The notes under the pieces were generated by a model. It did not search any database. It saw only the letters and a list, made by a program, of their open reading frames with translations, and had not been told where the DNA came from. This document shows, one piece after another, positions 59,410-64,000 of a stretch of DNA of 64,000 bases. This DNA is from Streptomyces sp. NBC_01306 (GTDB taxonomy: Bacteria > Actinomycetota > Actinomycetes > Streptomycetales > Streptomycetaceae): contig NZ_JAPEPC010000001.1 in assembly GCF_026340465.1 (NCBI RefSeq), forward strand, positions 6,959,501 to 7,023,500, in the 5' to 3' direction. Position 1 is the first letter of the stretch; every line of letters begins with the position of its first letter. The translations under genes and the position numbers were made by a program.

Positions 59410-60447
59410 TCAGGCGAGAGCCTGAAGGCCGACCGGCCACAGCAGAGTGGTGGCCGCCCAGGTGAAGCCTGCTCCGAAAGAGGTCACGAGGACTCGCTGC
59501 CCGGCTTTCAGCTGCCCGTCGAGCGCGGAGTGGCTCAGCAGCAGGGGGATGGAGGCCGCAGAGGTGTTGCCGACGTGGGTGATATTGGACGGAACGCGCT
59601 CCGGCGGGATTTCCAGCTTGCCGGCCACGGCTGCGCTGATGCGTGCGTTCGCCTGGTGGACGATCAGTCTGTCGATGTCCTGGACGGCCCATCCCGCTGC
59701 CGTGGCTGATTCTTGAGTCACCTGGGCGATACGGCGCACCGCGTGACGGAACACTTCGTTGCCTTTCATGTGTACGTACTGATTTTTCAGGTCGCCGGTG
59801 GTGTGTGAGGGGCGGCGGGAGCCCCTGTCGGGGATGTGGATGGCGTCCGCGTGTTCGCCGTCGCTGCCCCATGCGGCCGGCCCCAGGGCTCCTGGTTCGT
59901 CGGCGCGTCCGGTGGTGAGTACGACTGCGCCTGCCCCGTCCCCGAAGATCGGCGCGGTGGACCGGTCGGCGGGGTCGATGACGGCCGACATCTTCTCCGC
60001 TCCGATGACCAGAACGGTGCCGGCGGTTCCCGCGTGGATGAGGCCCGCTGCGACGGTTGTTGCGTAGACGAATCCCGAGCAGCCGGCGCCGATGTCGAAG
60101 GCGGGGACCTGACGCAGGCCGAGTCGATGGGCCACCAGAGGCGCGGTGCCGGGCACGTGATGGTCCGGAGTGGCGGTGGCCAGGACGACGGCGTCGACGT
60201 GTTCGGCCTTCGCCGATTTCATCGCCCGTAGCCCTGCCTCTACCGCCAGATCACTGGTGGCCGTCGCTGGACCGGCGATGCGTCGCTCGGCGATGCCGAT
60301 ACGGGTGCGGATCCATTCGTCCGTGGTGTCCAGGCGTGACATCAAGTCGGCGTTGCTCACCTTGCGCGGCGGCAGGTAGGACCCCAGGCCGATCAGCCGT
60401 GCAATACGTTCCGGCGACGGTGCCGTGGTTCTGCGTGCGAAGATCAA
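59410..60447 (-). CDS. 3-oxoacyl-ACP synthase III (KAS III / FabH-like)
   Basis: 345-residue condensing enzyme. The opening IGLGSYLPPRKVSNADL and DEWIRTRIGIAERR are FabH signatures. The triad is intact: Cys in DIGAGCSGFVYA (about 123), His in IVHQANARIS (about 264) and Asn in HVGNTSAASIP (about 294). It should condense an acyl-CoA starter with malonyl-ACP or catalyse a related C-C or C-O acyl transfer. The start is a TTG at 60447, with GAAGAG 9 nt upstream; the frame stays open to 60579 without a better start. It is the third gene of the operon, 165 bp after the acyltransferase-ACP gene. Its composition is less GC-extreme than that of the neighbouring housekeeping genes. Confidence 0.88.
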   Translation of the reverse strand: MIFARRTTAPSPERIARLIGLGSYLPPRKVSNADLMSRLDTTDEWIRTRIGIAERRIAGPATATSDLAVEAGLRAMKSAKAEHVDAVVLATATPDHHVPGTAPLVAHRLGLRQVPAFDIGAGCSGFVYATTVAAGLIHAGTAGTVLVIGAEKMSAVIDPADRSTAPIFGDGAGAVVLTTGRADEPGALGPAAWGSDGEHADAIHIPDRGSRRPSHTTGDLKNQYVHMKGNEVFRHAVRRIAQVTQESATAAGWAVQDIDRLIVHQANARISAAVAGKLEIPPERVPSNITHVGNTSAASIPLLLSHSALDGQLKAGQRVLVTSFGAGFTWAATTLLWPVGLQALA

Positions 60448-60612
60448 CGGATTCGTCTCTTCTGTGCTTGCTGGTTGGCGTCGCCGGAGGCGGAGGTACT
60501 GCCTTCGGGCCCGGATGACACCGGTCGCTCCGGTGATCCCGCTCTCGCCGCTGTGCGGCCGCTGATGTCCGCGGGCCACTGGCCGGAGCTTCTGGCAGAC
60601 GGCTGGGCGCGG

Positions 60613-62238
60613 CTACGCCTCAGGTACGGCGTGTGTGCGGTCCGATCGTGGGTGAGGGCCCTGTTCTCCCGGGCTCTCGTGGTCGGAGCGTGACGCTGCC
60701 TGTCGCGCCACCAGGCTGACCAGGTCGGCCACGGTGGGTGCCTGAGCCAGCTCGGTTTCGGTGATCACGACGCCCATCCGGTCCTCAAGTGTCATCGACA
60801 GCACGGCAATGGCCAGGGAGTCGATGCCGGCTTGTGCCTGCGTGGCCCGGAGAGCGATCGGTGCAGCCGGCAGACTTCCCTGTTGGACCAGAATGTCTTT
60901 GATGAGCCTGAAATCGATGACAGGTGCGGCATCACGGTCAGCGGCGGGTGCCGGGAACGTCACGCCGGTGCGGGGAGGTCGGCCCGGCTCCTTGTCCGCC
61001 TGCGGATCGTCCTGAGGCTGCGGAAGTTCGTCCACAGCGTCGTGGAAGAGACCGGGCAGCTCGTCCAGTCCGGGGAGAGCGGCGTCGGTGACAAAGCAGA
61101 CGCTGGTGACGTCGTTGTAGCTGCAGGCCACGATCGAGGCCGGCTGGTGCCGTGGGAGCCAGTTGAAGGGCTGGATACGGGTGACGGGGTCCAGCCGGTA
61201 GCGAAGGGGCCGGGAGACGGCGAGGTAGGAAGTGGTGATGGCGGACCGGTCGGGTGTGGTCATCCGGGTCGCCAGAGCCTGGAAGGCGCGTACGGGGACG
61301 GCATCCATCAGGGAGCGCATGGCCCTGTGGCGGCCCGGGTCCTTCACGGTGCGGGTGGCGGCGATGACTTGGTCGAGTCGGCCGTCAGCTGTCGGCTCCT
61401 GGCAGGGGAGGAGCGCGGGGGCGAAGGCGATGTGGTTTCCGGGCCGGTCCTGTTCCCCGGCGCGGCGCGTATTGACCATCGTGATGGCGGGCAGCGGCCT
61501 GTCGGCTCCCCGGGGCCAGGATTGTGATGTCCATGTGCGCAGGGCTCCGCTGAGGGCTGCCAGGAATCCGTCGTTCGTGTCGCCGCCGCGGGCCGTGGCG
61601 GCGTTCCGCAACCGGTGGCTGGGTACATGCGCCCAGCTGATGTCACGGTTGCCGGTGAGGGGCAGTGCGGTGTCGTTCCAGACGTTGTGGGTGGCGCTTG
61701 CGGAGAGCATGTCGCGCACGGTGCCCAGGTAGGCTCTGGCGCCTGCCCGGGGCGCGCGCTGCTCGGTCGGCGCGGGCGCGGTGCCGAACAGAGTGGTCAG
61801 GGTACCGACCATGCCCATGCCGTCCTGGGTGCTGTGGTGCGCTCGCAGGCAGATGGAATACCGGCCGGGGGCGTATCCGGCGAGCAGCCAGATGTCCCAC
61901 AGCGGGCCCGTGCCGGGCAAGGGGCGCGCGACGAGGTCGGTCAGGGCCGTTTCGAGGTGCTGCTCGCCCGATGGGCAGTGCTGTTCGCGGACGCGGTTGT
62001 TCAGGTCGGGGGAAGGGTCGTGGTGCCAGCGGGCTTTGAGTCCGGGGCCGCGGAGGTAGTGGGTCAGGCGTGGCACGTGCTCCAGATGGGAGGCGACATG
62101 CCGGCGGAGTTCGCCGAGGGGAGGAGCGTCTCCGTTCAGGTGGAGGATCACTCCGATCGTCTGGGAGATCGAGGGATGGGCCTGAGCCATGGTGTGCATG
62201 GTCAAGTCCATGGAGGTGGGACGAAGGGGCACGGTCAC
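60613..62238 (-). CDS. WS/DGAT-type acyltransferase fused to a C-terminal acyl carrier protein
   Basis: 541 residues. Residues 1-400 match the wax ester synthase/DGAT branch of the condensation-enzyme superfamily: active site HHSTQDGMGM (His134, His135, Asp139), TNDGFLAALSGALRTW (the family's ND block) and CSYNDVTSVCFVTD. Residues about 440-515 are a carrier-protein domain with PVIDFRLIKDILVQQG, the phosphopantetheine serine in GIDSLAIAVLS (Ser474, codon 60817-60819), and VVITETELAQAPTVADLVSL. The fusion would present an ACP-bound acyl group to the acyltransferase active site. GTG 62238 overlaps the upstream stop as GTGA and has GGAG in front. It is coupled to the cyclase-like gene. Confidence 0.85.
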   Translation of the reverse strand: MTVPLRPTSMDLTMHTMAQAHPSISQTIGVILHLNGDAPPLGELRRHVASHLEHVPRLTHYLRGPGLKARWHHDPSPDLNNRVREQHCPSGEQHLETALTDLVARPLPGTGPLWDIWLLAGYAPGRYSICLRAHHSTQDGMGMVGTLTTLFGTAPAPTEQRAPRAGARAYLGTVRDMLSASATHNVWNDTALPLTGNRDISWAHVPSHRLRNAATARGGDTNDGFLAALSGALRTWTSQSWPRGADRPLPAITMVNTRRAGEQDRPGNHIAFAPALLPCQEPTADGRLDQVIAATRTVKDPGRHRAMRSLMDAVPVRAFQALATRMTTPDRSAITTSYLAVSRPLRYRLDPVTRIQPFNWLPRHQPASIVACSYNDVTSVCFVTDAALPGLDELPGLFHDAVDELPQPQDDPQADKEPGRPPRTGVTFPAPAADRDAAPVIDFRLIKDILVQQGSLPAAPIALRATQAQAGIDSLAIAVLSMTLEDRMGVVITETELAQAPTVADLVSLVARQAASRSDHESPGEQGPHPRSDRTHAVPEA

Positions 62239-63905
62239 GGGGTTCTCCACTGTGGTGGGTTCGACGGGCAGACAGGGTCGGGCCGGTGAGCAGGAACATC
62301 CGCGAGCTGCGTCCTGGACGTGGAGCGGAGGAGACGCCGGCGGCCCGGCACGAGGACGCCTGACGGCCGGATGCGTCGGGTGAGGTGGCCCAGGGCGAGA
62401 AGGGCGAACGCGTCGGTCAGCAGAGGGACGTGGTACGGGAAGGGGCGCGGGCCGAGCATGTCGGGAACGGACACGATGCCGCCGTCGGAACGCTGGTGGG
62501 TGAGCAGGTGGCGGGCGGCGCGCGCAGCGGGAGCAGGGTCGGGCTGCCCGGCCAGGATGATCAGGGCGTAGGCGGTGCTGATGGCATCGCTCGGGGCGTC
62601 GTTCTGCTGTCCGAAGCCGCCGTCCGCGTTCTGCGTGGTCTGCACCAGGCCGGCGATCCGGCTGCTCATGCCATGGACGGCCGGCGGGGACTGCCGGTGA
62701 TGGGAGCGAGTGGCGAGGTACGCCCTGAAGAGGGTGTGCAGGCGGCTGCCGCTCCAGCCCGGGGGAAAGGACCCGTCAGGCATCTGGCGGTCGGCGAGAA
62801 AGCGCAGAGCGGCCTGGATGACGTGATGGTGGCGGCCTTGAGCGCTGAGCGCGTTGATCGCGGCGGCGGTCATGCACGCCTCGGAGGGAGTGCCTGATCC
62901 GTAGGTGGGGAATCCGCCGTCGGCGCCGCGGACCGCGATCAGTGCGTCCACAGCGCGCCGAATCGGGTCGCGGTAGACGTCCGCATCCAGCTGGTGCAGG
63001 AATTCGACAGCGACGGTGGTGCAGTCCGTGTCGGAGAGCTGAGCGCGGTCGGTGTAGGACCAGCCGCCGTTCGCGTGCTGGACGCGCACGAGGTGCCCGG
63101 CGATACGGTGCAGTACCTCACGTGGCGCGCCGGCGCTGCACAGGGCAAGGCCCGCGATGACGGTGCACCATGTATCGGTGTCCGTGACGAAGGGCAGGCC
63201 GCCGTCCTCCCGCTGGTGCGTGAAAGCGGTACGCAGTCCGTCGTCGACGACGCTCTCCATGCCGGGCACGTCGACCAGAGCATGCAGCACCGACAGGTGG
63301 ATGAAGAGGTTTCCCTCCCACACAGTTCCCGGGCACTGGGTGGACACCAGCAGGGTGACATCGTCCCGGTCGACGGGGGCTTCGCCTGTCGCCAGGATCG
63401 CTTTCACGGCAACGGCCTGCACAGCAGCCCACGGATGCAGCGCGCCCGTATCGACGGCACGTGAGTCACCGTCATCGCCGGCGTTGGCCACGCCGAGCAT
63501 CGTGAAGATGGCGTGTACCAGGGCACGTTTGCGAGTTCGTGCGAAGTCCGGCACACGGCTGACGATGCCCTCAAGGGCCTGCTGAGGCGACGGATGCCCA
63601 GTGCCCCGGCCCAGAGCGGCAGCGGCCACGGCCGCGTCCATCAGACCTCCACTGCCCCGGTGGCGCTCCAGGTAGCGCACCATGCGGTCACGTGCGCCGA
63701 CGTGGCCGGATCCGCGCCGATCCAGCAGCGCCAGGGCCAGTGCGGATTCAAGGACCCGGCTTCGACAGGTGTCACGCACGGCACCGTCCGCTCCCACCCG
63801 GTTCAGCACATACGCCAACAGACGACTACGTCCGGCAGGCAGCGCTGCCGGGAAATACGACGACGGCCAGGCCGGGGAAAGCTGCTCGGCGGCAGGGGGT
63901 CTCAT
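62235..63905 (-). CDS. Squalene-cyclase/prenyltransferase-repeat protein (class II terpene cyclase fold)
   Basis: 556 residues (start ATG 63905; the frame is open to GTG 63983). Repeats of the QxxxGGW/F type are visible: QREDGGLPFV, QHANGGWSY, RGADGGFPTYG, RQMPDGSFPPGW, QNADGGFGQQ and QRSDGGIVSV. They build the alpha/alpha barrel shared by squalene-hopene cyclases, class II diterpene cyclases and prenyltransferase beta subunits. SDTDCTTVA (about 291-299) occupies the place of the DxDD(T) acid motif, with Cys instead of the last Asp. No membrane insertion or signal peptide is obvious, and the tail is Arg/Pro-rich. AAGGAC precedes the ATG. It is the first gene of the operon in this window; the promoter lies at or beyond the right edge. 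Confidence 0.75.
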   Translation of the reverse strand: MRPPAAEQLSPAWPSSYFPAALPAGRSRLLAYVLNRVGADGAVRDTCRSRVLESALALALLDRRGSGHVGARDRMVRYLERHRGSGGLMDAAVAAAALGRGTGHPSPQQALEGIVSRVPDFARTRKRALVHAIFTMLGVANAGDDGDSRAVDTGALHPWAAVQAVAVKAILATGEAPVDRDDVTLLVSTQCPGTVWEGNLFIHLSVLHALVDVPGMESVVDDGLRTAFTHQREDGGLPFVTDTDTWCTVIAGLALCSAGAPREVLHRIAGHLVRVQHANGGWSYTDRAQLSDTDCTTVAVEFLHQLDADVYRDPIRRAVDALIAVRGADGGFPTYGSGTPSEACMTAAAINALSAQGRHHHVIQAALRFLADRQMPDGSFPPGWSGSRLHTLFRAYLATRSHHRQSPPAVHGMSSRIAGLVQTTQNADGGFGQQNDAPSDAISTAYALIILAGQPDPAPAARAARHLLTHQRSDGGIVSVPDMLGPRPFPYHVPLLTDAFALLALGHLTRRIRPSGVLVPGRRRLLRSTSRTQLADVPAHRPDPVCPSNPPQWRTP

Positions 63906-64000
63906 CGGGAGCACAGTCCTTGAGGGCACGGCGAACACGGTGACGTGCGAACCGGAGGGGCGAGGGCGAACGAGAGCAATCACATGGACCGGCGGCCGAG
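63906..64000. other. Upstream edge of the terminal operon
   Basis: These 95 bp hold the alternative GTG start (63983) and the ribosome-site-like AAGGAC. The promoter and any additional upstream gene are beyond the window. Confidence 0.35.

Follow-up and report, generated by a model that had tools for sequence, protein, structure and literature searches.

The closest described counterparts of the locus reported here are the SsDMS-type drimenyl diphosphate synthases and the drimane (cav) cluster of Streptomyces clavuligerus, in which a squalene-cyclase-like class II cyclase is clustered with a class I cyclase (PMC11035983). The same study describes the production of drimenol in E. coli with CavC and ascribes it to an endogenous hydrolase. 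In enzymes of the DxDD type the middle Asp is the proton donor, a residue that is also conserved in oxidosqualene cyclases (PMC11795633), and the DCTAE motif has been associated with epoxide activation (PMC10175467). For the acyl-handling genes of the locus, the known families that come closest are the wax ester synthase/diacylglycerol acyltransferases (WS/DGAT) and the FabH-type beta-ketoacyl-ACP synthases III (KAS III).

The locus lies near the right-hand end of a 64,000-nucleotide stretch of the genome of Streptomyces sp. NBC_01306 (contig NZ_JAPEPC010000001.1), hereafter the window. The original prediction, made from the letters alone, had placed three minus-strand genes at 59410-63905, and these agree with the list of open reading frames. 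The features, including one that enters the window only with its end, are as follows:

59410..60447, minus strand: KAS III (FabH subfamily) with a full Cys-His-Asn triad (from profiles, motifs and the start of the homologue in genome G259)
60613..62238, minus strand: WS/DGAT O-acyltransferase carrying a fused acyl carrier protein (ACP) at its C terminus (from Pfam and motifs)
60712..60903, minus strand: acyl carrier domain (PF00550) with an Asp-Ser-Leu attachment motif (from Pfam; coordinates by arithmetic)
61819..61839, minus strand: acyltransferase catalytic motif HHSTQDG (from the motif; coordinates by arithmetic)
62235..63905, minus strand: class II terpene cyclase (8zg1 and 7xq4 being the closest solved chains)
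63021..63032, minus strand: cyclase motif DTDC, DVDD in 7xq4 (from the alignment; coordinates by arithmetic)
63983..64000, minus strand: relic of a class I terpene synthase, the end portion within the window (from the match to G259)

We read these genes as what this strain retains of a mobile locus for terpenoid-ester biosynthesis that occurs in Streptomyces and its relatives, would cyclise, ionise and acylate, and is truncated here; we put the probability of this reading at about 0.5.

The open reading frame of the KAS III extends over 59410-60579, and the predicted 165-base gap before this gene is obtained when it starts at 60447, the equivalent of the start used by its homologue in G259. 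The frame of the acyltransferase-ACP fusion (60613-62250) has its likely start at a GTG at 62238 and that of the cyclase (62235-63983) at 63905, a start common to its homologues, while the GTGA overlap of the two genes can be read directly at 62235-62238. Pfam returned the three families that had been proposed, namely SQHop_cyclase_C/Prenyltrans for the cyclase, WS_DGAT_cat plus PP-binding for the fusion and ACP_syn_III for the KAS III. The less extreme base composition of the trio is also evident, with a third-position GC of 0.78-0.82 versus 0.87-0.93 in the six preceding plus-strand genes, and the neighbouring lnt, Nudix and 3-hydroxybutyrate dehydrogenase genes are indeed on the plus strand, i.e. 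in the opposite orientation.

Relatives of the fusion gene are rare. The genus search found it at >60% identity in 5 of 392 genomes and recorded a match at E 1e-40 in 20 of 392; the order search found it in 5 of 391 genomes, including that of the window, at E 1e-250 or better and in 12 of 391 at 1e-70. A GTDB scan yielded nine loci and a plasmid search four records. After duplicates had been merged (or43 = G070, E2N166 = G512, K. aureofaciens = G634, S. atroolivaceus = G615 and NBC_01549 = G370), our table comprised 19 acyltransferase loci and two loci that have a terpene synthase-cyclase pair and no acyltransferase. Acyltransferase matches under about 42% identity were kept outside the table, 12 of them being looked at separately. 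The matches in G440, G119 and G323 were left out, as were two in G108 (its second and third).

The ACP domain is present in 14 of the 19 acyltransferase loci and is accompanied by the KAS III gene in all 14, whereas neither was found within 8-9.6 kb on either side of the acyltransferase gene in Kitasatospora GP82, AV19, G355, G301 and the NBC_01707 plasmid. This joint presence and absence fits the predicted partnership of the KAS III with the fused carrier. On the acyltransferase tree, which predates the addition of four plasmid loci, ACP and KAS III amount to a single change, and the perfect association between them therefore represents one event and not repeated co-gain. Cyclase, fusion and KAS III genes occupy one same-strand run in 13 of the 14 ACP-fusion loci, mostly in different genomic contexts, as expected if the three families form a set; the run is interrupted by an SDR gene in S. 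mirabilis and by an SDR fragment in G253. The 14 loci are not independent, because those of NBC_01483 and NBC_01549 are near copies. The exception to the run is or43, in which the fusion and KAS III genes are terminal on a 5.2-kb contig, the cyclase gene being on another, with other genes adjoining it and no acyltransferase gene within 4.8 kb. We observed neither of the outcomes named beforehand as speaking against the prediction, that the families would rarely be adjacent elsewhere or that the cyclase would belong to another known pathway.

The idea of a compact three-gene pathway did not hold, since in other genomes the set also includes a class I terpene synthase, and two of the loci have an SDR/F420-reductase fusion as well. 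An intact terpene synthase gene stands beside the cyclase gene in 17 of 18 cyclase loci, the window being the exception, and in 13 of the 14 ACP-fusion loci; one further intact copy lies beside the acyltransferase gene in G355, which has no recognisable cyclase. Terpene synthase-cyclase pairs also occur without an acyltransferase (G376 and G295), as do acyltransferase homologues without terpene genes nearby (G301 and NBC_01707), so that the terpene and acyl halves are separable. This separability, along with the two contigs of or43, would suit two separate products, a terpene on the one hand and an acyl ester or lipid made by the fusion and the KAS III on the other. We consider such a division of labour quite unlikely in view of the shared run in 13 of the 14 loci, the near-identical set that moved as one block (see below) and the matching trees of acyltransferase, cyclase and terpene synthase, which agree on the main groups.

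Three of the loci are carried by linear plasmids of 1.0-2.4 Mb (Streptomyces megaplasmids). The plasmid-borne set of NBC_01483 is 98.5% identical to that of NBC_01549 over 6522 bases, a stretch that starts shortly before the gene for a small secreted protein (SEC) and ends 42 bases past the KAS III gene; similarity between the flanks is confined to two stretches, of 662 and 63 bases. Such a block of identity between mostly unlike flanks is the pattern expected if the whole set was recently transferred in one piece. On the chromosome, the suspected accessory insertion is borne out by a relative, G023, where about 3.2 kb of different DNA, without the three genes, separates the same flanks (3-hydroxybutyrate dehydrogenase and PaaX, 92-93% identical at the DNA level). 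The sequence at this place in G023 (L119, 4428-7685) contains a gene for alanine racemase and a HEAT-repeat ORF, and such different content at one chromosomal site suggests that insertions may recur there. Among the loci that carry the set, G259 has the flanking genes of the window, which were absent from those of the 10 other organisms compared (11 records). A cav-like functional role for the Nudix gene next door was considered and rejected, as this gene flanks the empty site in G023 and was not found at the loci of the 10 other organisms, a comparison in which G259 does have the Nudix flank and to which G525 and the plasmid loci do not belong. The set is recurrent and, as far as searched, undescribed, with all of its parts coming from known families; it was not found in the open-licence literature, which is weak evidence of absence. 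It can be regarded as a rare, recurring and mobile biosynthetic set for which we found no described product.

The nearest relative with the locus, G259, has KAS III, fusion and cyclase genes that are 91-93% identical to those of the window, and SEC is followed there by the genes for the class I terpene synthase, the cyclase, the fusion and the KAS III, in this order. All 18 intact terpene synthases among the relatives carry DDxxD and NDxxS, as expected of class I enzymes, and that of G253 matches pentalenene synthase (2.5e-24) and, more weakly, a labdane-related diterpene synthase (6oh6, 1.3e-11). In the genome of the window only three pieces of this gene are left, which match residues 1-21, 196-224 and 281-321, do not include DDxxD and extend to the equivalent of window position 64239 (L025, 11484-11740); the window itself ends 18 bases into the relic. 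The gaps relative to G259 measure 533 and 173 bases, neither of them a multiple of three. The same genome still has class I synthases elsewhere, since PF19086 matches at three other loci (four matches). Upstream of the relic is the SEC gene (L025, 11747-12448; window-equivalent 64246-64947), which is found in 11 of the 14 ACP loci. A model of the SEC homologue of E2N166, built on a 4-row alignment (mean pLDDT 70), has a possibly HtaA-like predicted fold; its best Foldseek E value is 1.5e-4, the HtaA matches have TMq values of 0.51-0.61 and the Pfam HtaA profile remains below its cut-off. HtaA proteins bind haem. The suggestion that the cluster be followed to the right was thus rewarded with a synthase relic and a secreted-protein gene upstream of the cyclase, beyond base 64000, and it was the three-gene outline of the pathway that had to be given up.

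Between the cyclase and acyltransferase genes, S. mirabilis NBC_01248 (458 aa) and Kitasatospora GP82 (467 aa) encode an SDR fused to an F420H2-dependent quinone-reductase domain. This is the only ketoreductase-like gene in the sets; it is intact in these 2 of the 19 acyltransferase loci and eroded in five others, G259, G525, G253, S. huasconensis and NBC_01450, which retain shreds of it at the same position. No SDR shreds were found between the two genes in the window, E2N166, K. aureofaciens, S. atroolivaceus, NBC_01549, A. paucisporea, NBC_01483 and AV19. The shreds in the relatives place the GTGA overlap of the window where those relatives lost the SDR, and those of G259 suggest that an SDR was once present in the ancestor of the window locus. 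The overlap had been taken as a sign of tight coupling, but it adjoins a gap of 261 bases relative to G259; with SDR shreds retained in G259, an ancestral coupling of cyclase and acyltransferase was discarded. A 4-base overlap between the fusion and KAS III genes exists in or43, K. aureofaciens, S. atroolivaceus and G253.

With its class I synthase and SDR lost, the locus may simply be dying in this strain, the three remaining genes being leftovers before decay. We regard this as a real possibility, at somewhat less than even odds: two frame-breaking deletions in the synthase gene, the 261-base deletion next door and the erosion of the SDR in five relatives all accord with it, but the remaining frames and catalytic motifs are intact and the omega values versus G259 are low, 0.20 for the KAS III, 0.32 for the fusion and 0.32 for the cyclase (0.12 for SEC and 0.11-0.29 for three neighbouring genes). 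The omega of the fusion rises to 0.52 versus G525 and 0.46 versus G253, above that of the KAS III or cyclase. Polarising the changes in the three genes by G253 gave 69 silent versus 52 replacement changes for the window lineage, against 56 versus 53 for that of G259 (p = 0.43). The window branch thus shows no sign of relaxed constraint, and a recent loss, too young to register, would look alike.

The cyclase exceeds the Pfam cut-offs for both PF13243 and PF00432, which places it in the class II terpene cyclase superfamily. It matches 8zg1 and 7xq4 with E values of about 1e-65; the retrieved entries are named only as cyclase-domain proteins, and we take them to be drimenyl diphosphate synthase (SsDMS). 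Its DTDC motif retains the middle Asp. All 18 tabulated cyclase loci have either DTDC or DVDC, and none has the DXDD of the SsDMS type. Among the more distant cyclases, DVDC is seen in G356 and G344, DVDD in G074, G321, G016 and the second G295 copy, and DTDD in G023; DxDC is therefore not unique to the set. The DxDC cyclases provide a natural test of the catalytic acid motif against substrate choice. Some distant class II cyclases are encoded beside aromatic prenyltransferases (PF11468), as in L085 (11540-12457 and 9614-11467) and L086 (14481-15425 and 9107-10744), the latter with FAD enzymes in addition; DVDC and DVDD both occur in these surroundings, whose composition suggests meroterpenoid clusters.

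The acyltransferase domain scores 53.6 bits with PF03007 (cut-off 23.6) and has the HHSTQDG motif, as befits a WS/DGAT family member, while its 129 bits with TIGR02946 are below the curated cut-off of 310 and thus mark a divergent branch of the family. The attachment motif of the carrier domain is IDSL and its profile resembles those of fatty-acid-type ACPs; both HHxxQDG and the Asp-Ser of the ACP are found in 14 of the 14 ACP loci. With a mean pLDDT of 54, an AlphaFold prediction for the fusion was too poor to be used. In seven of the 12 more distant acyltransferase loci (30-37% identity class), the gene adjoins two polyprenyl synthases and a PAP2-like protein, which ties this branch of acyltransferases to isoprenoids.

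These seven loci (L033, L034, L035, L036, L037, L038 and L144) share a compact set of two polyprenyl synthases, a WS/DGAT enzyme 34-37% identical to that of the window, the PAP2-like protein, which is below the Pfam cut-off, and an ABC transporter pair, and it resembles a pathway that makes and exports prenyl-alcohol esters. Among the remaining distant loci, L040 and L041 retain the ABC pair only, L040 having an additional weak terpene synthase match, and L039, L042 and L043 have neither synthase nor PAP2. The homologues in G301 (L032, 9625-10890) and the NBC_01707 plasmid (L148, 7959-9227), with no terpene genes nearby, do not have the standard HHxxQDG, the G301 protein reading SHTTHDG at this position. 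In G355 (L031, 7196-13512), WS/DGAT and terpene synthase genes are found together with an MMPL transporter gene, and a 387-aa protein with the sequence PADTDCT takes the place of a normal cyclase; this protein, considered as a possible mini-cyclase, had no Pfam match, and a profile comparison aligned 16 columns at 5% probability.

The predicted triad of the KAS III is complete, with GCSG, HQAN and GNTS all in place. The protein scores 384 bits with PRK09352 (cut-off 249), also exceeds the TIGR00747 cut-off, with FabH subfamily scores of 341-384 bits, and, judged by sequence, is a canonical FabH-type enzyme that is 41-42% identical to its nearest paralogues in the same genome. The triad is found in 14 of the 14 KAS III proteins of the ACP-fusion loci; in the S. 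mirabilis protein Ser replaces the Gly before the active-site Cys, and the Cys is kept. Some relatives of KAS III work as acyl shuttles, and the enzyme might likewise take the acyl group of acyl-CoA and hand it to the fused ACP without condensing, in which case the ester would contain an ordinary fatty acyl group. The scarcity of an intact SDR, the one ketoreductase-like gene, would be compatible with shuttling, but the full triad and the FabH scores are what a condensing enzyme should have, and we judge the shuttle unlikely. Condensation is favoured because the triad is complete in all 14 proteins.

Starting from the gene content, motifs, conservation, linkage, deletions and insertion documented above, we infer the substrates, the order of steps, condensation as opposed to simple acyl loading, the acyl transfer with its acceptor, and the product from what is known of the families. 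In the proposed terpenoid-ester pathway, the class II cyclase would protonate and cyclise a prenyl diphosphate. FPP appears likelier than GGPP, because no homologues of the two L033 polyprenyl synthases were found in 17 locus records (the plasmid loci being outside this test) and because the terpene synthase is closest to sesquiterpene synthases. The class I synthase would ionise the cyclised diphosphate to give a terpene, probably an alcohol, whose oxidation state may be adjusted by the SDR/F420-reductase fusion where it is present. The KAS III would condense acyl-CoA with malonyl on the acyltransferase's own ACP, producing a 3-oxoacyl-ACP held in cis, and the WS/DGAT domain would pass the 3-oxoacyl group to the terpene hydroxyl. 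In the window strain, with only shreds of the class I synthase and no SDR, the route would either give nothing or esterify the alcohol from the hydrolysed class II product, which a host phosphatase could release, by analogy with the formation of drimenol described above. A bolder version of the proposal, which we offer tentatively and consider somewhat unlikely, is that the locus embodies a new logic of terpene acylation, in which the KAS III builds a 3-oxoacyl group in cis, the alcohol made by a DxDC cyclase and a class I synthase is esterified, and the product in this strain has been redirected, not ended.

If the terpenoid-ester reading is correct, terpene cyclisation would be joined to ACP-bound acyl synthesis via one fusion enzyme, and the complete six-gene version on the S. 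mirabilis NBC_01248 plasmid (L145, 3230-10800) would provide a natural comparison with the partial and truncated versions of the locus. Among known systems, the KAS III resembles FabH-type enzymes in its full triad and in passing the family cut-offs but differs in its co-occurrence with a fused ACP. The acyltransferase shares the HHxxxDG motif and a family match with the wax ester synthase/diacylglycerol acyltransferases (PF03007; 6chj, 7nxg), from which it is set apart by the fused ACP, the KAS III partner and its place on a divergent branch. With the oxidosqualene cyclases and their DCTAE motif, the cyclase has in common the Cys-Thr after the catalytic Asp; unlike them it also keeps the first Asp and is about 540 aa long, and no epoxidase was recognised among the shared genes of the locus. 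The Nudix hydrolase and P450s of cav-type clusters are not part of this set, a P450 haem-loop pattern being found in 0 of 17 locus records (by a pattern scan, not a family search). The SsDMS-type synthases and the cav cluster nevertheless remain the nearest parallel, sharing with our locus the clustering of a squalene-cyclase-like class II with a class I cyclase and the sequence match of the cyclase to 7xq4 and 8zg1 (presumably SsDMS), whereas here DTDC replaces DXDD, an acyltransferase-ACP fusion and a KAS III are present instead and no Nudix gene travels with the set.
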